From Aequorivita sp. HC6-5 (GTDB lineage: Bacteria; Bacteroidota; Bacteroidia; Flavobacteriales; Flavobacteriaceae): a DNA stretch of 64,000 bases. This document shows, piece by piece, positions 3,550 to 62,294 of the stretch. The notes under the pieces are model-generated. The model was not told the origin of the DNA. It was given only the letters and a program-made list of their open reading frames with translations, and did not search any database. The stretch is taken from assembly GCA_905182755.1 (NCBI GenBank), contig CAJJCS010000002.1:62001-126000 (forward strand). The letters are read 5' to 3'. A program made the position numbers and the translations under genes. Position 1 is the stretch's first letter. Each line of letters starts with the position of its first letter.

Positions 3550-6500
3550 TTATTGAAGTTTTGTTGGGTTTCTTTGCGCTACAAATACAGCAATTTTCAT
3601 TTTTAGTCGAGTAGCAAAATAGAACAGGATTGGTACAATGATTAATGTCAAAAATGTGGCAATAATTAAACCATATATAACAGTCCAGGCCAAAGGCCCC
3701 CAGAAAATTACATTATCTCCTCCCATATAAATATTAGCATCAAATTCACTAAATAAGGTAAAGAAATTTATGTTTAAGCCAATAGCCAGAGGGATTAGCC
3801 CTAAGACAGTAGTAATTGCTGTTAACAGCACAGGACGTAATCTTGCCTTACCTGCCTGTATGATGCTATCTAGTAAATCTTCTTTTTCAAGGTATTGACT
3901 AGCGTCTAGATCCAGCGTATTTTTCTTTCTATCGATAAGCAGTTGGGTATAATCTAGCAGCACAACACCATTATTAACAACAATACCGGCAAGGGATATA
4001 ATACCCATCATGGTCATGATAATAACAAAAGGAGCTCCAGAAATTACAATACCTCCAAAGACACCAATGAAGCTCAGGAATATAGCTATCATAATAATAA
4101 ATGGTTTAGAGACAGAATTGAATTGAAAAATTAATATCAGAAAAATTAAGCCCAAACCACTAAAAAACGCACCCATTAAAAAGGCCTGTTCTTTATTTTG
4201 TTTTTCTAGTTGCCCTGTGTAATCAATTTTCACGCTATCTGGGATGCCTTCTATATTTAGCATTTCATTTTTTACCTGCGCAACTGCGGCTCCGGCATCT
4301 GTATATCCTGGAGTTAATGCAGAGTACAGTGTTACAATTCTTTTAGATTGTTTGTGCTTTATGGCACTAAATCCAGAGTTATTTTTTTGAGATGCAACTG
4401 TAGAGACTGGTATTTCACGCAGTTTTCCGGTGGGTGTTCTAAAGGTTATAGATTGATTAAAAAGCGCGCTTGAGTTGTAGCGGCTTGCCTTGTTGAAACG
4501 AATATAAATATCATAATCTTCTCCATCTTCTTTGTACACGCCTGCCTTGGCGCCAAATAAAGAATTACGCAGTTGCTGGCCTATTTGCCCAGCATTGACC
4601 CCTAGCTCACCTGCTTTTTCTCTGTCAATGAGAACCTGCATTGCTGGTTTGTCTTTATTGACGTCTATCTTCAGCTCATCTATGGCAGCTATATTTTTGG
4701 TGTTTAAAAAAGCACGCATTTTTTCGGCAGCTGTGATAAGCTCATTATAATCACTACCAGAGAGCTCTATGTTTACAGGTGCTCCTTGTGGAGGGCCATT
4801 AGAGTCTTTCTCTACAGAGATGATAATTCCAGGATAAATTCCCTTTAAATCTTCTTGTACTTTTTTGCGCAATACCTCACTGTCTTCTCCACGGCGGTAT
4901 TTGTACTCTCTCATAGAGGCTGTTATTTTGCCCTTATGAGGCATTTCTGCAGAAGAGCCGCCATCTGTTTGCGGATTCCCAGCACCTTCTCCAACTTGAG
5001 AAACAGCACTTTCTACCAAATAATTAAACCCTCCATCTGTGTACTGGTCACTATTTATAGTGTTGTATACACGCTTTTCAATTTCTTTTGTGATGGCATT
5101 TGTTTTTTCAATAGAAGTCCCTTGGGGATATTCTAGGTAGACAATAATTTGATTGGGTGTGTTGTCTGGAAAAAATTCAATTTTTGTTCTTTGGTTTGAA
5201 ACCGAAATTCCAAATGCTGCAAAAGCTCCAAATAGCATTACAAAAGTAAACCCAATAATAAGATAAGGTCTTGCACCTTTAAAGGCTGTTGTGAGATTTT
5301 TTTTGTACCAATTCTCTAACCTAGTAAGTACTTTGGTTTGAAATGTATTTGCAAGTTTACGGAGTATTAATCTATAGACCCATAACATCGCGGCAGTGAA
5401 TATCATTAGGCTTCCAAGACCGCTATAAGCGCCTCCAAATGCCATAATAAATGCTCCAATACCTATCATAATTGCTGAAATGGCAATGATGTTTTTTAAA
5501 GGCATGTCTTTGTCCTGGGTAGACATAAATTGAGACACCAGCACCGAATTAAAGAATATGGCAACAAATAAAGAGGATCCTAACACCACAGATAGCGTGA
5601 TAGGGAAATAGATCATAAATTGCCCCATTAGCCCTGGCCATAGCCCTAGGGGTATAAATGCAGCGACCGTAGTTGCTGTAGATATAATAATTGGAAATGC
5701 AATTTCTCCAATTCCTTTTTTGGCGGCATCTATGCGGCTAAGCCCTTCCTCGTCCATTAATCGGTATACGTTCTCTACAACTACAATACCATTATCAACC
5801 AACATTCCAAGGCCCATTATTAGTCCAAAAAGTATCATGGTGTTTAATGTGTATCCCATCCAACCCAATATCATTAATGACATAAACATAGACATGGGTA
5901 TTGCAAAACCAACAAACAGCGCATTTTTAAAACCAAGGAAAAACATCAATACCGTTACCACCAAGATGATTCCGAAAATAATGTTATTAACCAAATCATC
6001 TACTTGCCCAATGGTTTTTGATGATTGATCATTGGTGATGTTTACCTGCAGGTTTGAAGGAAATACATTGGCCTGTGTTTGGGCAACAATTCTTTCGATT
6101 TTTTCTGCGGCAGCAACCATGTTTTTCCCAGATCTTTTCTTAACATCTAGCATAACAACTGGGTTGCCGTATTCTCTGGCAAAGGTAGTTCTGTCTTTCT
6201 CTTTAAAACTTACAGTGGCCACATCTTTTAGATAGACTATGTCTCCATTTTCTGACTTTACAACAAAATTTTCTAATTCTTTGGGGTTTTCTATTTCACC
6301 TAAAATCCTGATAGTTCTGCGCTGTCCGCTGGTTTTAAAATTACCTGCAGACATGGTAGTGTTACCATTAGAGATGGCACCTTGAATATCATTAAAACTA
6401 ACAGAAGAGGCCATCATTTTATAGATATCTACAGCAACTTCTACTTCTTTTTCTTGAGCTCCACGAATATCAACTTGCTTTATTTCTTCTAGATTTTCAA

Positions 6501-10472: not shown

Positions 10473-11445
10473 ATGGATATTTCAAAATACAGTGATGCTC
10501 TAGTTGCACACCTAGCCAACAAGGTTACCCTAAAAGAGCCTGCGTCATTGTATGAACCTATTGATTACATACTCACTTTAGGAGGTAAACGCCTTCGCCC
10601 GGTGTTAACTTTGATGAGTGCAGATTTTTTTGGAGGAAATTACAAACAGGCTCTAGATGCTTCTCTTGCCGTAGAAATGTTTCATAATTTTTCTCTTGTT
10701 CATGATGATATCATGGACAATGCTCCACTTAGAAGGGGCCACCAAACGGTCCATGAGAAATGGGATGTCAATACAGGTATTTTATCTGGAGATGCCATGC
10801 TAATTTTAGCCTACCAACTTTTTGAAACCTACAGGCCAGAGGTATTTATGCAATTGGCAGTTTTGTTTAGTAAAACCGCTTTAGAGGTTTGTGAGGGCCA
10901 GCAATATGACGTTGATTTTGAAACAAGAAACGATGTTACCATTTCTGAGTACATTAAAATGATTGAATATAAAACAGCCGTGCTTATTGGCGCTTCTTTA
11001 CAAATGGGAGCTATTATTGCAGACGCTTCACAGTCTTGCCAAGAAAAAATATATGCCTTTGGGAAAAATTTAGGTATTGCATTTCAATTACAGGATGACT
11101 ACCTAGACGCCTTTGGAAACCCCTTGACTTTTGGAAACAAGTGGGAGGAGATATTATAGCCAACAAAAAAACATTTCTTTACTTAACGGCATTACAAAAA
11201 AGCACTCCCTTCTGAGGCCCAAGAACTTATCTTCATTGTTTGCAACTATGCCAAAAGATCCTTCAGATAAAATAACAGCTGTAAAAGAAATTTTTGTCTG
11301 CTCAGGAGCTGCAAAAGCTACCGAGGATGAAATAGCCAGGTACACCAACACATCAATTTCTTTATTACAAGACATTAAAATTTCACAGCAACACAAAGAC
11401 ACTCTAAAGAGCTTTGCTGATTTTTTAATGAACAGAAACGTCTAG
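10473..11445 (+). CDS. Polyprenyl (farnesyl/geranylgeranyl) diphosphate synthase, frameshifted
   Basis: GGKRLRP, LVHDDIMDNAPLRRG, FQLQDDYLD motifs; the sequence continues in other frames (SEAQEL.. / ..SLFATMPKDPSDKITAVKEIFVCSGA) after the stop at 11159. Confidence 0.88.
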
Positions 11446-32461: not shown

Positions 32462-32848
32462 TTAACGTTTCGAGAATTGGAATTTTTTACGGGCTTTTTT
32501 CTGTCCGAATTTCTTTCTTTCTACCATTCTTGGATCTCTAGTTAAAAGACCTTCTGGTTTTAAGATTCCTCTGTTCTCATCATTTAATGTGCACATTGCA
32601 CGAGATATAGCCAAACGAATTGCTTCTGCTTGTCCAGTGATACCACCACCAAAAACATTTACTTTAATGTCAAAGGTTTTCTCATTGTCTGTCATTACAA
32701 GTGGCTGCATTACTTTGTATCGTAATGTTGGGGTTGTAAAATAATTATCAAACTCACGCTTGTTGATTGTGATGTTTCCTTTCCCTTGAGATAAGTAAAC
32801 ACGCGCAACAGCGGTTTTTCTTCTTCCAATTTTGTGTATAGTTTCCAT
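32462..32848 (-). CDS. rpsI: 30S ribosomal protein S9
   Basis: 128 aa, GRRKTAVARVYL ... DPRMVERKKFGQKKARKKFQFSKR. Confidence 0.98.
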   Translation of the reverse strand: METIHKIGRRKTAVARVYLSQGKGNITINKREFDNYFTTPTLRYKVMQPLVMTDNEKTFDIKVNVFGGGITGQAEAIRLAISRAMCTLNDENRGILKPEGLLTRDPRMVERKKFGQKKARKKFQFSKR

Positions 32849-33306
32849 TACTTAGTTGCGGTATTAATTTTAATAGCTCTTGGTTTTTGCGCTTCTTGAC
32901 CGTGGTTTGCATCTGCATACACTTTCAAGTTTCTAAAAAGTACTGAACCTAATTTGTTTTTAGGCAGCATTCCTTTAACCGCCTTCTCAACAACGCGTGC
33001 TGGATTCTTGTCTTTTAATTCTGTAGCAGTAAGGCTTTTTTGTCCACCTGGGTAACCAGTGTGACGTATGTAAGACTTTTCTGCCCACTTGTTCCCTGTT
33101 AATTGGACGTTGCTTGCGTTTATGATAATCACATTATCTCCACAGTCTACATGAGGTGTAAAGCTTGGCTTGTGTTTACCGCGAAGTAATTTTGCAACTT
33201 CACTCGCAAGACGACCTAGTGTGTGCCCGTCCGCATCTACTATTAACCACTCTTTTGTTACAGTGGCTTTATTAGCAGATACTGTTTTGTAACTTAATGT
33301 ATCCAT
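32848..33306 (-). CDS. rplM: 50S ribosomal protein L13
   Basis: [45 protein letters not shown]. Confidence 0.98.
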
Positions 33307-33539
33307 TATAGTTCTTTGTCTAATTATTAATAAATTATTTCTGTCCCGTATTATCGGACGGCAAAAATACTGTTATTTATTTGAATAACAAATAGTAAAA
33401 GATACATTTTCGTTTATTTTTTTGAAATAAAATCCTAAAGATAAACCCCTTGTTTAAAGGGGCCTCTCAATTTATAAATCTGGTGTTACTCTTGTGCTGA
33501 TTTTACTCAACACCTGTATAGGAATTTGAGTATTAACAT

Positions 33540-34634
33540 TTAGCGCGTTTTGGCTATTTTAAACGTTTCATTATTAATACGCACATAAAACATATTTCCA
33601 GATAGTGAAGAAAGGTCAATTTGTTTTAAGTTGCCCTTTAATTCTCCTGAGAGCATTAATTGACCTAGCACAGAATACACTTGGTAAAAGGCGTCCTGTT
33701 GTAAAGATATGTTTACAACACCTCTAGTTGGGTTAGGATACAAAATTGTCTGACTTATGTTCTCTTGTGTATCTAAAACTTCACATTCAAAACTACTTTC
33801 TATGTTTGATGCAAGTGGATTGTCTTGAACGTAATCTGTCAGTAAAGAACAATAGCAATCGTTTTGATCTACATATAATTTAAACCATGATAGTGCAACT
33901 TTACCAACACTTGAGTTGCCTCCCTCTGGTGTATTTGCAACACCATGATTACCATTTTCTATTTCAAAGAGGAGTTTATTTGTGCTATTTGGGGTGTTAT
34001 CATAATGTATGTTGGCATGAATCCCTGGAGGAGCAACCGTATCATCTTGCCCACTAAAAATCACTACAGGGCTGCTATGATCTAAATCTGGGTTTGGAAG
34101 CCAAGGACATAGCGCAACGACTCCCTTAATGCTATTGTCTAAAACAGCAGCACGTTGTGCTCCTCCGCCTCCCATGGAGTGTCCACTTACGGCAAACTTG
34201 TCTTCATCTATAGCTCCAAGTAGTGGTGAGGCATTTCTGGTGTTCTCTTCTCGTAGTGTTTCTAGGGCATCCAATAAAGCTTCTGCTCTGGCTTCTGGAA
34301 AATCATAAATCGAATTTGTACCAATAATAATAGTAACAATACCATGAGAGGCATAAAATGGCCCCCAGGCCTCAACACTATTTGGCGAGGCGGTAAAACC
34401 TGGTACAATAGCGATACTAGCATAGGGTGGTGTAGCGTTTGTAGGATAATAAACTGTGGCGCCAAAATAGTCCGGGCCATTACGAAGTCCGTCTGCCTCT
34501 GTGAGGGTGGCAACATCATAAATCCCTGGGTTGCTTAGGCTACCAATGGTGATCTCCTCGCACTGAGAAAACACCGTTGTAGTAGCTAGAAATAAAGCCA
34601 ATAAAACAACTGTTTTTGTATATAATTCTCTCAT
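33540..34634 (-). CDS. Secreted PETase/cutinase-like polyester hydrolase (alpha/beta hydrolase) with T9SS type A sorting domain
   Basis: Signal peptide; GFTASPNSVEAWGPFYASHGIVTI, GHSMGGGGAQ nucleophile elbow, SGQDDTVAP, ENGNHGVANTPEGGNSS; C-terminal YPNPTRGVVNIS...IDLSSLSGNMFYVRI. Confidence 0.88.
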   Translation of the reverse strand: MRELYTKTVVLLALFLATTTVFSQCEEITIGSLSNPGIYDVATLTEADGLRNGPDYFGATVYYPTNATPPYASIAIVPGFTASPNSVEAWGPFYASHGIVTIIIGTNSIYDFPEARAEALLDALETLREENTRNASPLLGAIDEDKFAVSGHSMGGGGAQRAAVLDNSIKGVVALCPWLPNPDLDHSSPVVIFSGQDDTVAPPGIHANIHYDNTPNSTNKLLFEIENGNHGVANTPEGGNSSVGKVALSWFKLYVDQNDCYCSLLTDYVQDNPLASNIESSFECEVLDTQENISQTILYPNPTRGVVNISLQQDAFYQVYSVLGQLMLSGELKGNLKQIDLSSLSGNMFYVRINNETFKIAKTR

Positions 34635-34714: not shown

Positions 34715-37576
34715 TTAATGTGCCTGTAGCCAATTCTCACCCTCTCCTAGTTCAACATCAAGAGGCACCGCTAGTGTGTAAGCATTTTCCATTTCAGTTT
34801 TAATGAGTGTTTTCATTTCAGAGAGTTCTGGCTTGTACACATCAAAAACTAGTTCATCATGTACCTGCAGTAGCATCTTGGTTTTATAGCCGCCTTTCTC
34901 TAATTTTTCATGAATGTTTATCATGGCAATTTTAATAATATCTGCCGCGCTTCCTTGAATAGGAGCATTGACGGCATTACGCTCTGCCCCGCCACGCACT
35001 ATGGCGTTGGAACCATTAATATCTTTTAAATATCTGCGACGGCCTAAAACTGTTTGTACATAGCCATTATCTCTTGCAAAATCTACCAATTCGCTCATGT
35101 AATTACGCAATTTCGGGTAGGTTTTGTAATAGGTGTCAATAAGTTCTTTTGCCTCACCTCTTGAAAGATCTGTTTGGTTGCTTAGTCCAAAGGCAGAAAC
35201 GCCGTAGATAATACCAAAGTTTACAGTTTTAGCATTACTTCGTTGCTCTCGGGTTACCTGCTGTAAGGGTACATTAAATACTTTAGCCGCTGTAGAGGAG
35301 TGAATATCTAGCCCATCTTTGAAGGCCTTCATCATGGTTTGTTCTTCACTTAATGCGGCAATGATACGAAGCTCAATTTGAGAATAATCTGCAGCCACCA
35401 ATACATACTCCTGGTTTCTTGGAACAAAGGCTTTTCTCACCTGTCTTCCTCTTTGGGTGCGTATTGGGATATTTTGCAGGTTAGGGTTATTGCTGCTAAG
35501 GCGTCCTGTTGCCGCAACTGTCTGCATGTAGTCTGTATGGACTCTTCCCGTGGCCTGTTCTATTTGTAGTGGCAAGGCATCTACATAGGTCGATTTTAGC
35601 TTGGCTAGCCCACGGTATTCAAGTACATCTGCAATAATTTGATGCTCTTTAGCCAGAGAAGAAAGCACATCTTCTGCGGTAGAGTATTGCCCTGTTTTTG
35701 TTTTTTTAGGCTTGGCAACAAGTTTCATTTTACCGAAAAGAATTTCTCCCAATTGCTTTGGAGATGCAATGTTAAATTCTTCTCCAGCCTCTTTGTAAAT
35801 GTTGGCCTCTAGGGTAAGAATGTCATGGTCTAAATCTCCAGAGAGTGACTGTAAGAACTCCTTATCTAGATTGATGCCCTCTGCTTCCATAGCCGCAAGA
35901 ACTCTTAGAAGTGGCACCTCAATGTCGTCAAATAATTTTTGAAGATTATTGTCTTTAAGCTCTTTGGCGAAGTGCTCTTTGAGCTGAAATGTAATATCTG
36001 CATCTTCTACCGCATATTGTGTTTGCTGGTCTATAGGCACATCGCGCATCGATTTTTGGTTTTTCCCTTTTTTACCAATGAGCTCTGTAATAGATACGGG
36101 CGTGTAGTTTAAATACGTTTCTGCCAATATATCCATGTTGTGTCTCATATCTGGATTGATCAGGTAATGGGCCAGCATGGTGTCAAATAATTTTCCGTGT
36201 ACCGAAATATTATATTTACGTAAAACCTTAATATCGTATTTTAAATTTTGCCCAACCTTTTCAATTTCTGTAGCTTCAAAAAAGGGACGTAATTGTTCTA
36301 TAATTTGCTGGCTAGCGTCTCTGTCTTCAGGAAAGGGAAGGTAGAATCCTTTGCCCTTTTCCCAAGAAAAAGCAATTCCAACAAGCGCTGCGGTAAGCGG
36401 GTTTAGCCCTGTTGTTTCTGTGTCAAAACAAACGCTGGGTTGCTTCATTAGATTTTCTATAAACAAGCGTGTTCCCATACCAGGTTGTATGGTTTGATAA
36501 AAATGTTCTGTGTCTTTAATGGTTTTTCTACTGCTGTAGCTCTGGCTTTGCGCAGTAGGTTCACTGTCTCCACCAAATAGTGAAAACTGCCCTTCTCCAG
36601 CGCTAGGACTTGCTGGTGTTGGAGATGTCTTTTTTGAATCAGTAGCAGCCGTCTTGGGTTGGTTACTGGTTCCTTTTGTAGCCATGGCCTGCTCAGAGAA
36701 TGTATTGGCAAAGCTAGTGGTGAGGCGGCGAAACTCTAATTCTTCAAAAATTTCTGTAACGGCGCCAATATCTGGAGCACTCATCTGAAAATTGGCTGCA
36801 TTAAAATCTACGGGCACATCCAGCATTATGGTGGCTAGTTCTTTGCTAAGAAGGCCAAGGTCTTTATTGGCCTCTATTTTTTCTTTCATTTTTCCTTTGA
36901 GCTGCGCTGTATTGGCAAGTAGCCCCTCCATAGAACCAAATTGGCTAATGAATTTTTTGGCAGTTTTGTCTCCAACTCCCGGAAGTCCAGGAATGTTATC
37001 TGCACTGTCACCCATCATCCCTAAATAATCGATGACTTGCATGGGGTCAGTAACTTCAAATTTCTTTTGTACCTCTGGGATTCCCCAGGTTTCATACCCA
37101 CCTCCAAAAACAGGACGATACATGAAAATATTATCTGAAACCAGCTGAGCAAAATCCTTATCTGGAGTAACCATAAAGGTTTGATATCCTTCTTTTTCTG
37201 CTTTTTTTGCCAAGGTTCCTATCACATCATCTGCCTCAAAACCTTCTTTAACCATGATGGGTATATGCATGGCAGTTAATATTTTTTGAATATACGGTAC
37301 CGCTATTTTAATGCCATCTGGCGTTTCATCTCTATTGGCCTTATACTCTGGAAATAGTTCGTTTCTGGCCTGGCTACCTCCTTTGTCAAAACAAACGGCT
37401 ATATACTCTGGACGTTCTCTTTTAATAACATCAATAAACGAATTCATAAACCCTAAAATAGCAGAGGTATCCATCCCTTTGCTATTAATGCGAGGGTTTT
37501 TAATAAGTGCATAATACCCTCTAAAGATTAAAGCAAATGCATCAATAAGAAATAAACGTTTTTTTGGTTGTGACAT
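34715..37576 (-). CDS. polA: DNA polymerase I
   Basis: 5'-3' exo, 3'-5' exo (FDTETTGL) and polymerase motifs (DYSQIELRI, KTVNFGIIYG, QVHDELVFD); start MSQPKKRLFLIDA at 37576. Confidence 0.97.
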   Translation of the reverse strand: MSQPKKRLFLIDAFALIFRGYYALIKNPRINSKGMDTSAILGFMNSFIDVIKRERPEYIAVCFDKGGSQARNELFPEYKANRDETPDGIKIAVPYIQKILTAMHIPIMVKEGFEADDVIGTLAKKAEKEGYQTFMVTPDKDFAQLVSDNIFMYRPVFGGGYETWGIPEVQKKFEVTDPMQVIDYLGMMGDSADNIPGLPGVGDKTAKKFISQFGSMEGLLANTAQLKGKMKEKIEANKDLGLLSKELATIMLDVPVDFNAANFQMSAPDIGAVTEIFEELEFRRLTTSFANTFSEQAMATKGTSNQPKTAATDSKKTSPTPASPSAGEGQFSLFGGDSEPTAQSQSYSSRKTIKDTEHFYQTIQPGMGTRLFIENLMKQPSVCFDTETTGLNPLTAALVGIAFSWEKGKGFYLPFPEDRDASQQIIEQLRPFFEATEIEKVGQNLKYDIKVLRKYNISVHGKLFDTMLAHYLINPDMRHNMDILAETYLNYTPVSITELIGKKGKNQKSMRDVPIDQQTQYAVEDADITFQLKEHFAKELKDNNLQKLFDDIEVPLLRVLAAMEAEGINLDKEFLQSLSGDLDHDILTLEANIYKEAGEEFNIASPKQLGEILFGKMKLVAKPKKTKTGQYSTAEDVLSSLAKEHQIIADVLEYRGLAKLKSTYVDALPLQIEQATGRVHTDYMQTVAATGRLSSNNPNLQNIPIRTQRGRQVRKAFVPRNQEYVLVAADYSQIELRIIAALSEEQTMMKAFKDGLDIHSSTAAKVFNVPLQQVTREQRSNAKTVNFGIIYGVSAFGLSNQTDLSRGEAKELIDTYYKTYPKLRNYMSELVDFARDNGYVQTVLGRRRYLKDINGSNAIVRGGAERNAVNAPIQGSAADIIKIAMINIHEKLEKGGYKTKMLLQVHDELVFDVYKPELSEMKTLIKTEMENAYTLAVPLDVELGEGENWLQAH

Positions 37577-39464: not shown

Positions 39465-41577
39465 TTAAAGCTCAATTAAATCTATGGCTTTTGTCACATC
39501 TGTCTCGGGCATTTTACAAGCGTTATTCACACAAACATAAACAAAGGTCTCATTTTCTATAAAACGCTGCTCTAGAAGTGGGCTATTTCCCTCTATGGTG
39601 CTACCTGCAACAAGTTTGTTTGGCAAATAGTACTGATGAATTTCTTTCACTTTTTGCTGCGCATCTTCTCCTACAACAACAATTTCATAGAAGCTGTTTT
39701 GAAAATTCGCCAATAAGTCCAACCAGTTAGAAAACCCTGACGGGTATTTTTCTATCTCTGGGAGTACATTTTTAAGCATTTGAGAAGCGGTAGCGCCATA
39801 CGTTTGGTTGTCAAAATGATGTGATAAAACATATAAGTTTTTTGCCATCATAGAGTTGGATGCTGGAATTACATTGTCTCTGTATTCAAAACTTCTTGTA
39901 ATTAAAGATGGATCCTGGTCATTGGTGAAATAAAACAGTTGTTTTTCTGAATCAAAGAAATGTCCGTAGGTGTAGCTTGTTAGTTCATTGGCAATGAAGA
40001 GCCACTGATCATCCAAGGTAATTTCATACAAACCAATATAGGCATCAATTACCGCGGCATAATCTTCTAGATATCCATTAATAGTGCTTTTTCCGTCCTT
40101 ATAGCTATGAAACAAAGCGCCAGAAGTTTGCCATTGTTTAGACTTTATAAAGTGTGCGTTTTTTAAAGCAGCCTGCAAGTATGCTGGCTCTTGAAATGCT
40201 TTATAAGCATCTACATATCCCTTTAGCATAAGCCCATTCCAGGAGGTTAGTATTTTATCATCAAGTCTTGGCTTATCACGTTTATTTCTGTAGTTAAGGA
40301 GTGTTTTTCTCCAAGCCTGTTTTTTGTTTTGTAATTCTTGATTGGTAATACCAAACTCTGCGCACACCACAGGGTCACTTTTAGAGCGTATTAATACATA
40401 ATGATTGTTCTCCCATAGTCCAAAAGAATTAATGTTATAATAGGTTGAGAATAATTCAACATCTTCTCCAAGTTCCTTTGTAAGCTCCTCTTTGGTGAAC
40501 ACATAATAGGCTCCCTCTTCAAGAACTCCATCCTTGGTGAGGCTATCGGCGTCAAAGGAAGAGTAAAAGGCACCTTCACTGTTTGTGCATTCTCTAGCAA
40601 CAAATGCAAGAGTTTGAGTTACCACTTCTTTGTATAAATTATCTTTAGTGGCTAAATAGGCGTTGCTATACAAGCTTACCATCTGGGCATTATCATACAG
40701 CATTTTTTCAAAGTGAGGAACATGCCATTTTTTATCTACACTATACCTTGAGAAAGCCACCTCCAATATGATCGTATATTCCGCCATAGGCCATCTTGTT
40801 TAGGGTAGTGGTAACATATTCAAGTAGGCCCGTATCTTTGCTTTGTTTTGCTTTTCGCAGAAGATAAGAAATGGTATTTGGCATCATAAATTTAGGAGCT
40901 CTGTTTGGGCCTCCAAATGTGTTGTCAAAAGATGCTTGCCACTGGCTTAAAATTTCATCGGTATTGTAGTTTTTTAAATCTACATTTTCCTCATTTAAAG
41001 GAAGAAGATCCATGCTTTTTATACCTTCTTCAAGATTGTTCGCAACCTCAAATAACCTTTCTGGGTTTTGGGTGTATAGTTTTTGCATTTGTTCTAAGGC
41101 ATTTACCCAATCCTCTTTTTTAAAATAGGTACCTCCCCAAACAGGTCTTCCATCTGGAAGTGTTATAACATTAAGTGGCCACCCTGCACTTCCGGTTAAT
41201 AGCTGTACCGCATTAATATAGATTTGATCTACATCTGGACGCTCTTCTCTGTCTACCTTAACATTGATGTAGTTTTTGTTCATTACAGCGGCAACTGCAC
41301 TATCCTCAAAACTCTCTCGCTCCATAACATGGCACCAATGACAGGCAGCATATCCTATGCTAACAATCATGAGTTTTTTATCCTTTTTTGCAGCCTCCAA
41401 TGTTTGGTCATTCCAAGCTCTCCAATCTACAGGGTTGTGCGCGTGCTGCAATAAATAAGGACTTGTTTCTTGGGCAAGTAAGTTGGTGTATTGATGTATG
41501 TCCACGGCGTCTTTTTTTGAAGTATTACAAGAAAAAAATAAAATCGAACAAAGTAAAATCAAATAAAGTTGTTTCAT
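39465..41577 (-). CDS. Thioredoxin-domain (DUF255/YyaL, SSP411-like) lipoprotein, frameshifted
   Basis: SPYLLQHAHNPVDWRAW, ACHWCHVMERESFED; frame change near 40750 restores [34 protein letters not shown]. Confidence 0.88.
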
Positions 41578-42686: not shown

Positions 42687-45600
42687 TTGTTAATGAAAAA
42701 AATAGTACCCTTTATATTTGCACTCTATTGTTCTGTGGGTATTGGCCAAATCACCATAGATGAAACTTTTACCGCTCAAGAATTAATTCAAGACATCCTT
42801 ATTGATTCTCCATGTGCTGAAGTTACTAATGTTGGCCAGCGTACGGGTACAGATTTTGGAAACGTAAACGGGATTGGATATTTTAACGCAAACGGCTCAA
42901 ATTTTCCTTTTTCTGACGGGATTATTCTAATGACAGGTGATGTTTCTCAGGCATCTGGCCCCAATAATACTGGTGTAACGCTAAGTGGTGGTGACGCATC
43001 ATGGCCCGGAGATCCAGATTTAGAGGCAAACACTACTGCAACAGCTACCAATAACGCCTCTGCAATTCAGTTCAATTTTGTACCACAAATTGCTCAGATA
43101 AATTTTAATTTTATTTTAGCATCTGAAGAATATAATAGAAATTTTGAATGTACTTTTTCTGACGCTTTCGCATTTATACTCACAGACCAAGTAACGGGTG
43201 CTGTTCAAAACCTTGCGGTATTACCTGGTACCACAACTCCAATAGAGGTTACAAATGTTAGGTATGGTATCCCAGGGCAGTGTGATGATATAAATACAGA
43301 ATATTTTCAACAATATAATTTTGATGTTCCTGGTTTGCCTTCTGTAAATGCGGCAGACTCTCCCATATACCTCAATGGCCAAACCGTTCCTTTAACAGCT
43401 GTTGGTAATGTAATTCCGGGAAATGGCTACAACATAAAACTAGTTATTGCAGATGAGACAGATTCTGCATTTGATGCTGCCGTATTTCTTGAAGGTGGCT
43501 CTTTTAATATTGGAGTAAACCTTGGTCCAGATGTTACCATTGAACTAGGAACTGCTTTGTGTGAAGGTGAAACATTAGAGATAGGTTTATCTGGCCTGGG
43601 TGGTTCTACAGATGGAAGTACCTATCAATGGTTTATTTTCAATCCTGTTACTTTGGTCTTTGACATCATTCCAGGAGAAACTAATTCCACGCTAGATGTC
43701 ACAGTATCTGGAACCTATCAAATAGAAGTTACCAATGATGATTCTGGTTGTTCTGGAACCGATGATATTGTAGTTGAGTTTGCCCCACAGCCAATAGCAA
43801 ACCAACCAATCAATTTGTTTCAGTGTGATGATGGATCTCAAATGGGGGTTTTTGATCTTACCATTAATGATGCGCTTGTTTTGGGCGCTCAAGACCCTAC
43901 TTTGTTTACAGTCAAATACTATGAAGATTTCACAGACTCTCAAGCAGGTGTAAATGAAATTCTTACGCCCAATGCCTTTCTAATTACCGCACCACCTTTA
44001 CAAACAATTTTTGTGCGCATAGAAGATATTGGCGGAATATGTTTTGCTTTAGAAGATTTTACAATTAATTACTCCCAACCTTTTGTAGCTGAACTTACTG
44101 ACGAAGGATTTTGTGATGGTGACTCCAGCGGTATAGTTGCTGTTAATTTACCAGATCTTAAAGATGTTGAGGTTCTCAATGGTCTTGATCCTCTGCTCTA
44201 TGATATTACCTACCACAATACCCTCATTGATGCAAACGCAGATGTAAACCCACTGCCAGGAATTTATAATGTAACGGGACCTGTTGAGACTATTTTTGTG
44301 CGTATAGAAAGTGTTTTTGACCAGCTTTGTTTTGATACAGGAAGCTTTGATATTACTATTTATGTAGCGGCTACCGCCACCATTCCAACCAAGTATAACA
44401 TTTGTGACGAGTTACCCAACGATGGTTTTGGTATTTTCGATTTAACGACCAAAGATTTAGAGATTACCGGAGGTAACCCAGATGCAGTAGTTTCTTACTA
44501 TATTACTTTTGCTCAGGCTCTTGCAGGAACTCCTGCTATTGCTCCTGCCGATGCATTTATTAATACAGTACAAGGTTTTCAAGTTGTATATGCTAGGGTA
44601 GATAATATAAACGCCACAGATTGTTCTAACATCGTAGCTTTAGAGTTGCAGGTTAATGATGCTCCTGCCATCACAGATCCAATTACTGATTATTTTGTGT
44701 GTGATTTGGACGGTAACGGTATTGAGACTTTTGATTTAACGAGCAAGGATGAGGAGATTTTAAATTCTTTGGTAGATGTTACTTTAAGCTATCATGAGAA
44801 TTTTGCAGATGCAGAAGCTGGGTTATTTCCTATCACTCCTGCCACGGGGTATGTAAGTCCTTCTGCTACTATTTGGGTACGCGCTGTAAACTATGAGGAT
44901 GGAGATATTTCTAATGCTGCTTTGTGTGTTACTATAGGACAGTTTGATTTAATTTTAGGAGAGACTCCTTCTTTTAATATTATCCCAGAGATTGTAGCGT
45001 GTGATGATGAGATTGCTGATGGTATTACGGAGTTTGATTTAAACAGTTACAATGAGATTATCACCGGTGGTAATCCAGATGTTACTGTCACGTATCATGC
45101 CACCCAGGAGTTTGCCCAAGATGGTATTCCTGCCTTGCCTGTATTTTACACCAACACGACCAACCCTGAAGATATTTGGGTACGTGTTAGTGATGTAAGT
45201 GGTTGTTATGGTATTTTCATGAGTTCTTTGGTTGTTGTGCCTCGTCCAGAGATATTTGAGCCCTTGCCACTTATATACTGTGATGATGACAACGATGGTT
45301 TTGGGACCTTTATATTAACGGATGCCGATGAGCAGGTAGTAGGAGGTAACCCAGCGGGTAACCTAGTTGTTAGTTACCATGTTACATTATCTGATGCTAT
45401 AAACGGGGTATTGCCTTTAGTTAGTCCTTATGATAATGAGGTTCCTTTTGATCAGATTATCTATGTTCGATTGTTTGATATTGCTTCGGGATGTTATAAC
45501 ACCACGATTCTGCATTTACTAGTAGAGGAGCGTCCAGCCATTACCGACCCACAGCCTTTGGTTGTTTGTGATACAGATGGAGACGGCATTGCTGTTTTTA

Positions 45601-48600
45601 ATTTAACCTCTGCAGAGCCTGATATGCTTCAAGGCTTAACGGGCGGCCCTTATGTTGTGTCTTACTTTACAGACATGGCGATGACTAGTGCTATTGTGAA
45701 CCCTTTTAGTTTCAGCAATAGTGTGAACCCTCAGACGATATATGTTACTGTTAGTGATACCAATAATGATTGTGAGAGTTTAACTACCTTAGAGCTACGT
45801 GTTGAGATCCCGCCACTGCTTGTCAATCCAACGCCACTGGAGCTTTGTGACCAGACCGATATTCTAGGGCCTGATGATGAGCTGGAGATTTTTGATTTAA
45901 CCAGTAGGATAGCAGAGATAACAGGCGGAGATTTAAGTGTATCTGTTAGCTTCTTTGAGAGTTTTGCAGATTTGCAAGGTAACACCAACGCTATTGCAGC
46001 TCCAACAGCCTACCAAAATATAATTGGCGGTGTTGTTCAAAACCCTCAGACTATATGGATACGCGCCCAGGATGTAAACACCTCTTGTGTTATCGATACA
46101 GGTGTTGTAACCTTAGATTTGATTGTAAATCCACTTCCTTCACCAATACTACCAACGCCACTGGAGATTTGTGATATAGACAATGATGGTTTTGGCGAGT
46201 TTACCTTGACCGATAAAGATATTGAGATTATTGGCGGTGAGCCAGGAGTTATCGTTAGCTATCACGAGACGTTGAGTGATGCTCAGAATAACATATTCCC
46301 AATAGGGAGTCCTTACCAAAATATAGTAGCCAATCTTCAGTTTGTTTATGTACGTGCTACCTATGATGATGTTCCTCCTGCGTTAGGTACAGGTTGCTGG
46401 CGTGTTGTCAAGCTAGAGCTTGTTGTAAACCCAACACCTATCGTACCGATAGATTTAGAACCAATTATAGCCTGTGATCCAGATATGGATGGTTTTGAGG
46501 TGTTTGATCTCACCCAACGCGCAGCTATCATTTACGGTACTCAGGATGTAAGTCAGTACTCGTTAAGTTACTATTTAAGTGAGGCAGATGCCCACAGTAG
46601 GCACCCCAGCTATTGCAAGTCCAAACACTTTTACCAATACTGTTAACTCCACTACAAACTATTTGGATCCGTTTGGAGAATGTAGATAGTGGCTGTTTTA
46701 AGTTGGGTAGTTTTGATATCCAGGTTGTTGATGGCCCCGAGGTTATACAACCCAACGCGTTTAACAAGTGTGATGATTTGGGAGAACCCTTTGATGGTAT
46801 TACGACCTTTGATTTAACAACTCAGGATGCTATTATTACAGCAGGCGAGCCGTCTGTAGGAGTACAGTATTATGAGACCCTTGCCAACGCGCAGGCAGAT
46901 ATTGATGCTATTAACCCTGCCACGGCGTATGTAAACCAGGTAAACTTGCAAACGATTTATGTTCGTGTTACCGATGGTAATAGTTTATGTGTAGATACAA
47001 GTGTTACCCTTACCCTAAGGGTATTGCCAAACCCTCAGCCAGAACAGCCAGATCCTATTGCGCTTTGTGATACAGATGGTGATGGTCAGCAGGTGTTTGA
47101 TTTAACCATTAGAGCTGCACAGATTTTAGATGGTGAGACGTATGATTTACTATACTACGAGACAGAGCTGTTAGCTATAGACGGCGCGCCAGGCACAGAG
47201 ATTTTAGATCCTACGGCGTATACCAATACTAGTAACCCTCAGGATATTTACATACGTGTTACCAACCCTGGTTCAGACGCTTTGTGTTTTGAGATAGTTG
47301 TTTTAACGATATCTGTAAACACGCTTCCAGATGATGGTGTTTTATTGGATGATTATGAGATCTGTGAGCTTCCCTTTGATGGTATTTCTATTTTTGATTT
47401 AACGACAAAGATTCCAGAGATATTGGTGGGTCAAGATATGGTTAACAATGTGGTTAGTTTTTATGTCACCCCGGCAGATGCTACAGCAGGTGTAAACCCA
47501 ATTCCAATACCTACCACGTACCAAAACATCACTAATCCTCAGGCTATCTATGTAGGTATTACTAATACGGCTACGGGATGTTATATAGGCGGCGTTCAGT
47601 TTTTCAACATTGAGGTGAAGCCAGGAGCTACAGCTACAGCGCCATTGCTTGCTTACACTTTGTGTGATCAAGAGGGAGAAAATGACGGTTTTACAAGTTT
47701 TGATTTAACCCTTCAGAGTTTATTGGATGAGATTTTAAATGGTCAAGACCCTTTAGATTATCTATTGACCTTCCACGAGACATTAGCCAATGCTATGGAC
47801 GCAGAGAATCCTTTGGGAGCTAGTTATACCAATATTATCAACCCTCAGATTATTTATGCAAGGGTAGAGAACGCATCTTCTGGCTGTTATGATGTTGTAG
47901 AAGTAATCTTGAAGGTAAATCAATTACCGGTAATTACCCTAGAGGAGAGTTATAGATTGTGTGTTGATCAAAATGGTCTTCCTATTGCCTCAGACCAGGG
48001 AGCAGCCTCACCACCAGTTATAGATACATCTCTAGATGATGCGTTGTATAGCTTTGAGTGGAGTATAGATGGTGTTGTTCAAGTAGGAGAGAGTGGCGCT
48101 AGTATTATAGCCACTACAGGCGGGGTGTATCAGGTAAATATTACACAGTTATCAAGTGGCTGCCAGACAGTAGTTAGTACTACGGTAACGGTATCACAGG
48201 CTCCGGTTACGTGGAGTTTTAATTTACTTAACGGGGCTTTTGCTGATAACCACAGTGTAGAGATATTGGCCGAGGGTCTTGGCGAGTATGTGTATAGTAT
48301 AGATGGCGGACCCTTCCAGGAGAGTAATGTGTTTAGTAATGTATCTCCAGGGGTGCATACTATTACCATAAAAGACGCCAATGGTTGTGGAGAGGTTAGC
48401 TTTGATATAGGCGTTGTGGATTACCCTGATTACTTTACACCCAATAACGATGGATATCACGATACTTGGAATATAATAGGCATTGCAGATTTCGATGCTA
48501 CGGCAAATATTTATATATTTGACCGCTACGGGAAACTGCTCAAGCAAATTAGTCCATTAAGTCCAGGATGGGATGGAACTTATAATGGTAATGCATTACC

Positions 48601-48685
48601 ATCGAGTGATTATTGGTTTAGAGTGGAGTACACAGAACAAGGAATACAGAAAGAAATAAAAGGGCATTTTACCCTAAAGAGATAA
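42687..48685 (+). CDS. Giant choice-of-anchor-L/repeat protein with T9SS type B (gliding-motility-type) C-terminal sorting domain, frameshifted near 46590-46680
   Basis: N-terminal signal and DGIILMTGDVSQASGPNN..; about 14 FDLT-type repeats; C-terminal YFTPNNDGYHDTWNI...YIFDRYGKLLKQISPLSPGWDGTYNG. Confidence 0.88.
43770..47930 (+). repeat. Tandem ~90-100 aa coding repeats within the T9SS protein
   Basis: Recurring CD.dgdG...FDLT....e(I/L)..G....v.YhetladA......i....Y.N...pqtIyvRv.d....C. Confidence 0.85.
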
Positions 48686-48707: not shown

Positions 48708-49727
48708 ATGAATTTTAAAAAAACCTACGTTGTTTTACTTTTATTAGTAACCCAATTTTCATTTTCACAGGATGGTATTCCTGTTTATCACGACTACTTG
48801 AGTGATAATTTGTATTTATTGCACCCCTCTATGGCAGGAGCAGCATCTCACAATCAAGTAAGATTAACGGCCCGTCAACAATGGTTTGGAGAACTAGAGG
48901 CTCCAAATTTACAGACACTAAGTTTTAACGCAAGGCTGGGTGAGAAATCTGGTTTTGGCGCTATTGTGTATAACGATAAAAATGGTTTTCATTCTCAATC
49001 TGGGGGCTATATCACCTATGCGTATCATTTAATGTTTTCTAGAACAGCCACAGATTTAAATCAATTATCATTTGGACTTAGCGCAGGATTTTCTCAATCT
49101 AATCTTAATGAAAACACTTTTTTACTTTCATACCCAACCAATGACAGCTTTGATCCAGCAATTTTTGGAGGCACACAATCTGCATCCTATTTCAATATAG
49201 ATGCTAGTTTGTCTTATAATTTTTTAAATTTTTCTTCTCATGTTACTGTAAAGAATTTAATATTACAAAACAGAGACCTTTATGATCCAAGAAATGAATC
49301 TAATAACCAACGTAGATATCTAGTTTCTGCTGGATACGCAATTGGTAGTTATGGCTCAGACTGGAGCTATGAGCCATCTGTTTTATTTCAATACTCTGAG
49401 GGTACCGCAGAGAAATCTGTGGATGTGAATTTTAAATTATTCAGAAGCATGGATTTTGGTAAGATCTGGGCGGCATTATCATACAGAAGGTCTCTAGATG
49501 GTGCAGAGTATCTTCAGGGAGGGGTTATCGACTCACAACAACAACAATTAATCACACCTGTTTTAGGGGTTAATTATAATAACTTTTTATTTGCATACAC
49601 TTATGGTCTTCAATTAGGTGATGTTCAATTTAATAATGGTGGCGGGTTTCATCAAATCACTTTGGGGTATGATTTCTTAGGAAACAGACCAGAGCCTTAT
49701 GATTGTAATTGCCCAGCAATTAACTAA
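48708..49727 (+). CDS. PorP/SprF family type IX secretion system membrane protein
   Basis: DGIPVYHDYLSDNLYLLHPSMAGA; immediately follows a type B CTD protein. Confidence 0.93.
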   Translation: MNFKKTYVVLLLLVTQFSFSQDGIPVYHDYLSDNLYLLHPSMAGAASHNQVRLTARQQWFGELEAPNLQTLSFNARLGEKSGFGAIVYNDKNGFHSQSGGYITYAYHLMFSRTATDLNQLSFGLSAGFSQSNLNENTFLLSYPTNDSFDPAIFGGTQSASYFNIDASLSYNFLNFSSHVTVKNLILQNRDLYDPRNESNNQRRYLVSAGYAIGSYGSDWSYEPSVLFQYSEGTAEKSVDVNFKLFRSMDFGKIWAALSYRRSLDGAEYLQGGVIDSQQQQLITPVLGVNYNNFLFAYTYGLQLGDVQFNNGGGFHQITLGYDFLGNRPEPYDCNCPAIN

Positions 49728-52127: not shown

Positions 52128-54696
52128 TTAAAATTGTTGTCCTATTATAAAGTGGGTTTCCCAGCCATTAGGGTTGGTTCCCGACAATGTTGAATCAAAT
52201 CCATAAGCAAAATCGATACCTAATAATCCGAATGCTGGCATAAATATACGTAATCCTGCGCCAGCAGACCTCTTAAGATTAAAAGGATCATATTCTCTAA
52301 AGCCGTCATAAGAGTTTCCTGCTTCTACAAATGCCAATACATATATAGATGCTAATTGCTTCAATGTAATTGGGTATCTCATTTCTAACGAAAATTTATT
52401 ATAAATATTATTTCCATCTTGTGGTGATAGAGATTGATTAGGATATCCACGAAGTTGAACGACTTCTCTTCCATCTAAACTAAATGCACCAAGGCCATCT
52501 CCTCCAACAAAGAATCTCTCAAATGGAACAACACCTCTATCGTTGTTGTAAGATCCTAAGAACCCAAATTCTGTTTTAGAGCGCAATACCAAATCTCCAG
52601 TGATTTTGTTATACCAAGTTCCCTCAAATTTAATTTTATAGTACTCTAACCAATTAAAACGCTCTTGATCAATAGCAGAAATACGCTCTTGGGTGTCAAC
52701 ATCTGTTTGGTTTTCTCTTAGAAAGTCCACCAAACCTTCGCGCTCTTGAGCAAGCTTACCATAATCTACCCCATTAAATAATGAATAGGGTAGTGTTACT
52801 TTGGCAGAGACTTTAAATTCTGCACCAAATTTAGGATAAATTGGATTATTACCCACATTACTTCTTGTAAGACCAATAGTATATGCTAGGTTATTTGAAA
52901 AACCATCACCAAATGTAAATAGCCCTGTGTTATAATTTTTTAAGTTATAGTGCTGAAAACTTATGGCATTAGAGAATGTAAAGTTATCATCTGGCCAAGT
53001 CAATCTTTTGGCGAGGCCCAAGGATCCACCCGTGATTAAAAATCGTTGATCTTTATCTACTTCTCTTGTTTGGAAATTATAACGGTATTGTACCGTATGA
53101 GAAAAAGAACCACTAAACTGTACTGGGCGTTTTCCTCCCAACCAAGGCTCTGTTACAGACAAACTATAGGTTTGATAATTTGTACTTGCCTGGGCTCTTA
53201 AAGAGAGTTTTTGTCCATCACCCATAGGCAAGGGCTTATAGGCATCGGCGTTAAATATATTTCTTAGTGAGAAGTTGTTAAAAGATAGTCCAAGAGTTCC
53301 CACAAAACCACCACCTCCATATCCACCCTGAAGCTCTATCTGGCTTGCTCCTTTTTCTACCACAGAATATTCCATGTCTAGTGTTCCGTTGTTTGGATCA
53401 ACATTTTTAAAGTTTGGTGAAATTTGTTCTGGGTCAAAGAAGCCTAAATTACTTAGTTCTCTTATGGTTCTAACCACATTTCTTTTTACTGTATTTTTGG
53501 CCGGGTCTTGTACGTAATTCTCTATAAATTACATGGTCATTTGTTTTGGTGTTTCCAACTACCGTGATATGATCAAAATAGGCTTGCTTCCCTTCTCTAA
53601 TCCTTATTTCATAATCAATAGTATCTTGTCTTACGGCAACCTCTACTGCATTAATGGTAGAGAAAAGATACCCGTTGTTTTGGTATTTGTTTGTGAGATC
53701 AAAGGCTTCTGGGTCTGTGTTGTCTTCAATTCTTTCTGCCATAAGGGTTCCGTTGTAAACATCTCCTTTTTTAATACCCAGTGTCTGGCTTAATTGGCCA
53801 TTTGTGTATACGCTATTTCCTAAAAAGCGAATGTTTCCAAAGTAATATTTTTTACCCTCCTCTATTTTGATGGCAACACCAACACTGCGATCGTTTGTGT
53901 TGTAGACACTATCACTTACTATTTTTGCATCTCTATATCCATTCTCTTTGTAGGTCTGAATGATAGATGCTTTATCTTCTTTATAACCAGCATCAGTAAA
54001 TTTTGACATCTTCCAGATACGAATCGGGTTTCTTCTTTTAATATTTTTCATGGAACGCCTTAGGGTTCCATCTTGCAGATTTTCATTGCCTTCAAACTCA
54101 AGAGGAGAGATTTTAATCCTATTGTTTTTGTTGATAATGATTTTCATGTCTTTAGCAACTTCAACACCTGTAGAGTCTAGCTTTGCAGGAGTGCTAATAA
54201 TAACATCTGTGTTGTAGAATCCTTTTTCGACAAATTTATTGCGTATAAAATTTTTGGTGGTAGTGATTAAATTTTTAGTGATTTTTATCCCAGATTTTAA
54301 TTCTGTTTCTTTTAGAATTTCTTTGGTCATCGCTTTGCGAATCCCATCACCAACAATTGTAATTTCATCTAGCTTTGGTAGCTCCACTATATAGATTTCT
54401 AGATCTGCGAGGTCTCCATCTATTTTTGTAACGTAAATAGCAATGTCACTAAATAGATTTTGTTCCCATAATTTTTTTGTGACCTCACTCAGGCGTTCTC
54501 CAGGGATGAATATGCGCTCTCCTTTTTTAAGACCTGTAAAGGCAACAACAGTTTGATCATTGTAGCTCTGTGCTCCTGCAACTGTAATGTTATTTATCTC
54601 GTATTTTATACCGGCATCTAGCTCTTTTTGCTGTGCCTGTATTGTTGATGACCAGAGCAGTGCAATGGCTAAAAAACAAAAGATCTTTCTGTACAT
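52128..54696 (-). CDS. bamA: Outer membrane protein assembly factor BamA, frameshifted near 53480
   Basis: POTRA domains (VYRELRTRPGQKYSK..), C-terminal barrel (GIDFAYGFDS..HFIIGQQF); fixing one base in the A5 run joins KYSKRNVVRTIRELSNLGFFDPEQ. Confidence 0.92.
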
Positions 54697-54715
54697 ACTA
54701 AAAATATAATGCGAA

Positions 54716-55456
54716 TTATAATTGCTCACTTGTCTTTCCAAATCTTCGTTCTCTGTTTTGATAATTTAATATTGCCTCAAAAAGATGGTTTTTGGTGTAA
54801 TCTGGCCAAAGTACATCTGTAAAATATAATTCTGCATATGCTAGTTGCCACAACAAAAAGTTGCTTATACGTTGCTCACCACTGGTGCGAATTAACAAAT
54901 CTACATCAGGCAGGTCTTGAGTGTATAGATGATTGTTAATCAGTTTTTCATCAATATTTTCAGGCGAAATTAATCCTTTTTTAACTTTAAGACTAATCTC
55001 TTGAATTGTTTTTGTTATTTCTTCTCTAGACCCATAACTTAGTGCAAGTGTCAAGGTCATTTTTGTGTTGTTTTTTGTTTTTTCAATCACATCCCTAAGC
55101 TCTTTTTGTGCTTTACTTGGTAGCGCATCAAGATTGCCAATGGCGTTTAATTTTATGTTGTGCTTGTCAAGCAACTTGATTTCTTTTTTTAAGGAGGAAA
55201 CCAACAGTCTCATCAGTAATTCTACTTCAATTTTTGGACGATTCCAATTTTCAGTAGAAAAGGCATAAAGAGTTAGGTAGGGTACGTTAATTTCCACACA
55301 AGCCTCTGTGATTTCACGAACTGCTTTTGTGCCATTTTCATGACCCATAGACCTAAACATACCCTTGGCTTTTGCCCAACGTCCATTACCATCCATGATA
55401 ATGGCCAGATGTTGTGGAATGGTATCTTTATTTATTTGTTCTAAGAGACGACTCAT
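54716..55456 (-). CDS. uppS: Isoprenyl transferase (undecaprenyl diphosphate synthase)
   Basis: HLAIIMDGNGRWAKAKG, LTLYAFSTENWNRP, DLLIRTSGEQRISNFLLWQLAYAEL. Confidence 0.96.
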   Translation of the reverse strand: MSRLLEQINKDTIPQHLAIIMDGNGRWAKAKGMFRSMGHENGTKAVREITEACVEINVPYLTLYAFSTENWNRPKIEVELLMRLLVSSLKKEIKLLDKHNIKLNAIGNLDALPSKAQKELRDVIEKTKNNTKMTLTLALSYGSREEITKTIQEISLKVKKGLISPENIDEKLINNHLYTQDLPDVDLLIRTSGEQRISNFLLWQLAYAELYFTDVLWPDYTKNHLFEAILNYQNRERRFGKTSEQL

Positions 55457-58598: not shown

Positions 58599-59361
58599 AT
58601 GATATTACACTCACAAATAATAGGAACCGGCACACCCTTTGTAATTCTTCATGGGTTTTTGGGTATGAGTGATAACTGGAAAAGTCTTGGGAAAAAGTTT
58701 GCCAATCAAGGATACCAAATGCACCTTATTGATCAGCGAAATCACGGCAGAAGCTTTCATGATTCTGTTTTTACTTATCAGGCTATGGCTGCAGATTTGT
58801 TAACTTATTGTGAGCATCACAATCTTGATCAAGTGGTTTTGCTAGGGCACTCTATGGGCGGCAAAACAGCTATGGAGTTTGCTACTGCTCACCCAGAAAG
58901 GGTGTCAAAATTAATTATTGCAGATATAGCTCCTAGGCAGTATGGTGAGCACCATCAAGATATTTTAAAAGGCCTTGGTTTATTAGATTTTTCTATTATT
59001 AATTCTAGGGCTAAGGCCAGACGAGGTTTTGGCAAGTTATATTAAGGAGCCAGGTGTGCGACTTTTTTTACTTAAAAATGTATACTGGATTGAAAAAAAG
59101 CAACTAGCTCTTAGAGTTAATTTACCTGTGGTTACCAAAGAAATTGCTCAAGTGGGTAAAGCGCTTGCTACTACTGCAGTTTTTAACAAAGAGACCTTGT
59201 TTGTTCGTGGAGAAAACTCTGGATATATAAGCTCTTTAGATGAAATTTCCATACAAAAACACTTCCCTAAAAGCCAAATAAAGACCATTTTGGGAGCTGG
59301 CCATTGGTTACACGCAGAAAATCCTCAGCAATTTCATCAAATTGTTGTGGATTTTTTATAA
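58599..59361 (+). CDS. Alpha/beta fold hydrolase, frameshifted near 59020
   Basis: VILHGFLGMSDNWKSLGKKFA, DQRNHGRSFH, GHSMGGKTAM; C-terminal GAGHWLHAENP in the other frame. Confidence 0.9.
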
Positions 59362-60762: not shown

Positions 60763-62294
60763 ATGAAAAATACTATAAAATTTATGATTGGTTTGCTTGC
60801 CATTGGTTTGGTAAGTTGTGAGCCAGAATTTGAAAATGCAGTAACCGATGAAGGTTTCTACGACGCAGGAGATGCAGATTTCTCAACCTATGTATCTCTT
60901 GGTGCATCTATAACTGCTGGAACTGCAGATGGAACAATTTACAAGTCTGCACAAGAAAACTCGTATCCAAGTATTGTTGCTCAACAATTTGGTTTTGTTG
61001 GCGGTGGAGATTTTACCCAGCCACTTACCTCAGATAATTTAGGAGGTTTGCTATTAAACGGAGAACCGCTTCCTGGATACGGAACTAGGTTGGTTTTATC
61101 TGCAGATGAGAATGGGAATCCTTTTCCAACACCATTAGACTGGAACACCTACTACAGATGTAGCAACAAGTGCTACAGGACCTTTTAATAATATGGGAGT
61201 TCCGAGGCTGCAAAAAGTTTTCATTTAGTACGCCAGGTTATGGAATCTTTGCTGGTATTGCTAACGGTACTGCAAACCCTTGGTATGCAAGATTTGCAAC
61301 CAGTGCATCTTCAACAGTAATTGATGACGCAGTTTCTTTGAATCCAACCTTTTTTAGTTTGTGGATTGGTAATAATGATGTTTATTCATATGCTTCTCAG
61401 GGAGGTATTGGTGTAGACCAATTAGGGAATTCAGATATTAGCACTTATGGCTATAGAGACATTACAGATCCAAATGCATTTGCTACTGCATATAGCGCTC
61501 AAGTAGATGCGCTTACTAGCTAATGGGGCTAAAGGAGTGTTAGTAAACATCCCAGATGTAACATCTCTTCCTTACTTTACAACTGTGCCACCGCGATCTA
61601 TACCCTTAGATGCTGCAACAGCAGGAGCTGTTAATGCACAGTTTGCATTATATAATGGTGCACTAGGACAATTAGTTGCAGGTGGATTTATTTCTGCAGA
61701 AGAAGCTGCTATTCGTGCAATTAATTTTGTAGAAGGTGTCAACTACCCTATCATGACAGATGTAGATTTAACAGATGTAACAGCCATCCTTATAGGAGCT
61801 GGTTTAGACCCGCAAACGCTGCACTTTTAGGTCAGTTACGTCAAGTAAAAAGTGATGATTTAGTGGTGTTAACAGCATCTAGTGTTTTAGGTACCACACC
61901 AGACCCTTCAAACCCATTAGGTGTTGTAGGTGTTTCTATACCATTACAAGACGTTTTTGTTTTAACATCTACAGAAAAAGCACGTGTAGATACAGCTGCA
62001 CAGTCTTTTAATGCTATTATCGAAGGATTAGCAGCTGCTAATGAGCTTGGATATGTTGATGCAAATGCTGCTTTAGCTGAAGTTGCCTCAACGGGCCATG
62101 CTTTTAATGGAGGTGTTATGACTAATGCTTATGTAACAGGTGGTGCTTTTTCTCTTAGACGGAGTACACTTAACGCCAAGAGGATATGCTTTTGCGCAAA
62201 TTCAATTATTGATGTAATTAACACAACCTATAATGCTTCTATCCCAAAAGTGGATATTGGTACGTATGGTACAGTAACTTTGCACAACAATTAA
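60763..62294 (+). CDS. SGNH/GDSL-like lipoprotein, multiply frameshifted
   Basis: Lipobox GLVSC; YVSLGASITAGTADG, FFSLWIGNNDVYSYA; reading frame broken at about 61140-61230, 61510, 61820-61860 and 62150. Confidence 0.75.

Follow-up and report, generated by a model that had tools for sequence, protein, structure and literature searches.

Hydrolysis of ester bonds by a Ser-His-Asp triad is established for the family of PETases and cutinases. Four of its Bacteroidota members, PET27 to PET30, are close relatives of the enzyme analyzed here, and the activity results given in PMC8767016 report them as active on pNP esters, tributyrin, PCL, Impranil and BHET. In the same results PET foil was attacked by PET27 and, far more weakly, by PET30, with PET28 and PET29 inactive on it. 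The literature on the W159H exchange in IsPETase is contradictory: according to the review PMC8669999, Joo et al. saw a dramatic loss of activity, and gains were reported in other studies when it was combined with further mutations (PMC11219463). Type I enzymes have a three-residue gap at the loop between the catalytic His and the next conserved Trp (review table, PMC11219463). In a 2025 ocean survey (ISME J) none of the M1-M4 enzymes tested acted on PET, and the M5 motif was proposed as a requirement for PET activity of ocean enzymes (PMC12224614).

We analyzed a stretch of 64,000 nucleotides (contig C2:62001-126000; hereafter the window) of a marine flavobacterium, from a 1.89-Mb assembly that is 77.5% complete. 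A preliminary description had placed an open reading frame for a PETase-like protein at 33540-34634 and left its strand unnamed. The frame exists and lies on the minus strand: read from 34634 to 33540 it translates into 364 amino acids, and the plus-strand reading of the interval gives 28 stops. The gene, its parts and its surroundings are as follows, in window positions.

33540..34634, minus strand: PET27/PET30-type esterase gene, 364 aa (open reading frame, structure-sequence and profile matches)
34566..34634, minus strand: signal peptide, residues 1-23 (sequence, by eye; PMC8767016 table 3)
33780..34565, minus strand: alpha/beta hydrolase (Pfam PETase) domain, residues 24-285 (profile match and model)
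34170..34184, minus strand: nucleophile motif G-H-S-M-G, residues 151-155, with S153 as nucleophile (alignment)
34181-34179, minus strand: H152 codon CAC (codon comparison)
34041..34043, minus strand: catalytic acid D198 (alignment)
33942..33947, minus strand: catalytic H230 and the rare G231 (GGT; TCT in most sisters) (alignment, codons)
33543..33743, minus strand: T9SS type A sorting domain, residues 298-364 (PF18962 and TIGR04183)
33405..34221, no strand: tract 23% different from the sister genome L025 (3.8% elsewhere), probable recombination (mismatch scan)
34715..37573, minus strand: polA, conserved upstream neighbour (neighbourhood comparison)
32462..33306, minus strand: rplM and rpsI, downstream neighbours in close relatives (neighbourhood comparison)

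The protein matches Pfam PETase (PF12740) over residues 37-270 (E = 1.9e-54) and Por_Secre_tail (PF18962) over residues 298-360 (E = 1.5e-9; 38.4 bits, cut-off 27). Its tail also passes NCBIfam TIGR04183 (30.4 bits, cut-off 23), and the NCBIfam BHET-hydrolase equivalog is matched below cut-off. Among solved structures PET30 is nearest in sequence (7pzj, E = 2.3e-140, residues 1-362), and the remaining PET hydrolases and cutinases with solved structures give 4.6e-47 and weaker. Matches of this strength to PETase, Por_Secre_tail and 7pzj are not due to chance. An AlphaFold model derived from 25 orthologues had a mean pLDDT of 82, and most of its catalytic-domain blocks reached 86 or above, with some at 73-80. 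Its top Foldseek match was again 7pzj (TM 0.91 on target length, rmsd 1.3 A, 68% identity); structures of LCC and IsPETase came next. Scanning genome contigs returned the genomes of the published enzymes, assigned here through table 1 of PMC8767016: Aequorivita sp. CIP111184 (L030, PET27), A. viscosa (L043, PET28), A. vladivostokensis (L032, PET29), K. jeonii (L068, PET30) and P. sakaiensis (L089, IsPETase). Identity to the window protein in the catalytic domain is 76% for PET27 and PET29, 73% for PET28, 67% for PET30 and 34% for IsPETase. In a tree of 75 proteins, the window protein and PET27-PET30 share one Bacteroidota branch (95/89, 53 rows), which is apart from the enzymes of Proteobacteria and Actinobacteria and leaves IsPETase outside. 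The protein has the PETase domain, the signal peptide (judged by eye) and the T9SS/PorC tail of the PET27/PET30 group, together with the site pattern laid out for that group in table 3 of PMC8767016, namely Phe-Met-(Trp/Tyr/Ala), an Asp-His-Ser triad and a single C-terminal disulfide position. The profile search and the structure prediction that the preliminary description had proposed as checks, along with the tree, thus uphold its assignment to PETase/cutinase-like esterases with a T9SS tail, of the PET27 and PET30 kind. We estimate at roughly 0.9 the probability that the gene encodes a native, secreted, T9SS-exported serine esterase of this Bacteroidota group, cleaving hydrophobic esters or polyesters via S153, H230 and D198.

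Alignment with IsPETase, PET27 and PET30, using the sequences from their own genomes, bore out all the residue comparisons with IsPETase in the preliminary description. S153, D198 and H230 fall at the triad positions, and homology and the fold match suggest that they also have triad geometry. W178 occupies the position of IsPETase W185, H152 that of W159 and G231 that of S238. The cysteines of the active-site disulfide are replaced by G195 and V232, as in PET30, and the spacing from the catalytic His to the Trp is 19 residues in the window protein, IsPETase, PET27 and PET30 alike. S153, M154, D198, H230, C25, C260, C262 and C284 are invariant in all 58 Bacteroidota relatives. Besides the C262/C284 pair, the invariant C25 and C260 may form an extra disulfide, a bond unmentioned in the cited parts of the PET30 paper (PMC8767016). 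The clamp, F80-M154-W178, is the same as in PET27 and Cut190, and positions 206 and 210 are His/His in the window protein, PET27 and PET30 and Ser/Ile in IsPETase. The protein has the extended loop of type IIb PETases (the IsPETase type), with 19 residues; its subsite II carries H152 and G231 instead of Trp and Ser/Thr, and G195/V232 stand in place of the second active-site disulfide (C203-C239). Type I cutinases combine His and Phe in subsite II with no loop extension; here the His is present, Gly replaces the Phe and the loop is extended. The C-terminal M5-PETase motif, DxDxR..FxC, is absent from the window protein, PET27 and PET30, and IsPETase has it.

The signal peptide is hydrophobic and ends VFS-QC; by analogy with PET27 and PET30, as listed in PMC8767016, it would probably be cleaved before Q24. 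The genome contains PorU (1314 bits), PorV (546 bits) and SprA, the last over cut-off and split into two neighbouring pieces. Por_Secre_tail has 61 matches in it, of which 56 pass the cut-off. With a tail over cut-off for both PF18962 and TIGR04183 and with all three components in the genome, the protein has the attributes of a T9SS type A cargo. Sec export would come first, the C-terminal domain would then direct passage of the outer membrane via the type IX system, and the enzyme would finally be released or anchored outside the cell. Elsewhere in the window, a CHU_C type IX signal marks a large secreted protein (42687-48685) that is split over two overlapping frames, likely by a frameshift; a PorP/SprF gene (48708-49727) comes next, and the two form an SprB-like adhesin locus. 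Other genes are split into adjacent reading frames (39465-41577, 52128-54741, 60763-62294, 10473-11445 and 58599-59361), among them those for a DUF255/thioredoxin protein, a POTRA/Omp85 BamA-like protein and others. SprA is itself split at G000:C2:150436-157576, and together these multiple splits look like assembly indel errors.

PF12740 occurs as a single-copy gene in 11 of the 12 genus genomes, including all six near-complete ones; of 300 genomes sampled from the family, only 12 have it. It is thus a genus core gene with a patchy wider distribution. It adjoins polA in 10 of the 11 carriers; the arrangement was not seen in L115. Given this presence and this neighbourhood, the gene is a native chromosomal gene and not a plastic-era gain; recent horizontal gain of the whole gene was rejected on the same two grounds. 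The genus-core place argues that these marine 'PETases' are older than plastic, so that such genes at sea are no evidence of plastic adaptation. In L027, unlike its sisters, about 4.8 kb separate polA (ending at 1160) from the PETase gene (starting at 5932), an insertion or rearrangement. A promoter scan found no sigma-70-like site upstream of the start, Bacteroidota promoters being of another type, and a single weak terminator-like hairpin lies at 33461-33446, in a scan whose counts are about those expected by chance. As to a PET-degradation cluster, no MHETase/tannase (PF07519) match was present in the 77.5%-complete assembly, a weak negative as the control matched nowhere.

DNA identity to the nearest sister genome, L025, is 97-98% for polA, rplM and tsf and 86% for the PETase gene. 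The excess divergence lies in the tract of about 0.8 kb at 33405-34221, which takes in most of the 3' two thirds of the gene and the downstream spacer. Its mismatch scan score is 118, against a highest value of 40 among 2000 shuffles. Within the tract the nearest relative is L022, then L024, and outside it L025. Four-taxon informative sites are also clustered in the gene (29 like their neighbours versus 16.8 +/- 3.3; 2 of 5000 shuffles as high). A difference of 23% inside and about 4% in the flanks suggests recombination between sister species, the simplest reading of the tract; the recipient may have been the window lineage or that of L025. Rapid change in a protein that is exported would explain part of the divergence, but it gives no account of a nearest relative that changes along the tract. 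Recombination is read here with the caveat that a chimeric MAG assembly could produce such a tract.

Both active-site departures from PET27, H152 (W in PET27) and G231 (S in PET27), are inside the tract; the L025 enzyme has W152 and S231. H152 occurs in 14 of the 58 Bacteroidota relatives, and a tree built without column 152 requires five changes between His and other residues at this position, four of them forced by well-supported branches; the codons are TGG versus CAC or CAT. G231 occurs in 3 of the 58, and the window protein shares the combination of the two with L024 alone. L113, which came out of the genus search, carries the pair too and is possibly the same genome as L024. The residue combination that had been singled out as worth testing is therefore rare as a pair, as is G231, but H152 alone is not. 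A sequencing or assembly error behind these residues is unlikely, because CAC at 152 and GGT at 231 recur in independent MAGs. It is a speculative and rather unlikely idea that the W159-to-H switch of subsite II, engineered in IsPETase, recurs in nature through TGG to CAC codon changes of three bases and partly through segment exchange between sister species, tuning an ancestral secreted polyesterase to different natural polyesters. The close relatives offer a natural set of W/H variants for testing the effect of W159H on one scaffold.

In the predicted mechanism, hydrophobic esters or polyesters would have their ester bonds cut in an open cleft by the S153/H230/D198 triad; F80 and M154 would serve as oxyanion and clamp residues, and W178 would form the clamp wall opposite. 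The most likely substrates are tributyrin-like esters and aliphatic polyesters such as PCL. Since the gene is standard in the genus, plastic, PET included, is unlikely to be the natural target. PET28 and PET29 share F-M-W, W152 and S231 with PET27 and, in the results cited from PMC8767016, leave PET foil untouched, so this motif is no predictor of PET activity. The M5 motif cannot settle the matter either, as it is missing here but also in PET27 and PET30. We put detectable PET activity of the window enzyme at somewhat below even odds. Of the earlier inference of a polyester/cutin-like esterase, the esterase class stands, and the substrate has to be qualified in view of the genus-core distribution, the PET28/PET29 motif and the M1-M4 survey.

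A true PET hydrolase with at least the activity of PET27, its cleft opened for PET by the H152/G231 pair, appears improbable. The PET27-like F-M-W clamp and the extended loop would fit it, and W159H belongs to the improved IsPETase variants W159H/S238F and DuraPETase (PMC11219463). The same clamp in PET28 and PET29 goes with inactivity on foil, however, and W159H alone is the exchange that lowered IsPETase activity in Joo et al. Marine Flavobacteriales sequences moreover fall in classes M2-M4, and tested M1-M4 enzymes were inactive on PET (PMC12224614), and at the Ser214 position the enzyme has H206, the residue to which restriction of the clamp Trp in type I enzymes is ascribed (PMC11219463). 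A second alternative, also unlikely in our view, is that the enzyme is a lipase or general esterase acting on surface lipids of algae or plants and on cutin-like esters, and is of no real use against polyesters. This would suit a gene that is core to a marine genus and predates plastic, and PETase-fold enzymes are promiscuous. Against it, each of the four close relatives that were soluble or recoverable, PET27-PET30, cleared PCL and Impranil in the results given in PMC8767016. A dienelactone hydrolase of an unrelated clade, which the preliminary description had named as a refuting outcome, can be dismissed. That family is distantly related, and PET27 gives a weak match to Pfam DLH, but at E 0.001 the window protein does not match this profile. 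It does match Pfam PETase, and among solved structures it comes nearest to PET30, followed by PET hydrolases and cutinases.

A secreted esterase of the PET27/PET30 group thus remains our reading, and PET27 itself (Aequorivita sp. CIP111184, WP_111881932) is among the closest known counterparts of the window protein: it shares the length of 364, F80-M154-W178, the triad, the 19-residue loop, G195/V232, C25/C260/C262/C284 and the T9SS tail, and differs in W152 and S231 and in having no polA within 6 kb of its gene. PET30 (Kaistella jeonii, PDB 7PZJ) has the whole architecture, including G195/V232, and departs from the window protein by Y178 for W178, W152 and S231; its C262-C285 disulfide, described in PMC8767016, corresponds to C262/C284, the C-terminal Cys pair that the preliminary description had thought possible. 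IsPETase (Piscinibacter sakaiensis) has the fold, the triad, the Trp clamp and the 19-residue loop in common with the window protein, and differs in Y87, W159, S238, its active-site disulfide, S214/I218 for H206/H210 and the lack of a T9SS tail. Cut190 and other type I cutinases resemble it in F-M-W (Cut190) and in His at the W159 position (PMC11219463 table), but have a shorter loop, Phe at the S238 position and no T9SS tail. The window protein is therefore a further enzyme of the PET27/PET30 group, a class already known, to which it adds a natural His/Gly subsite II; the rare part is this subsite-II pair.
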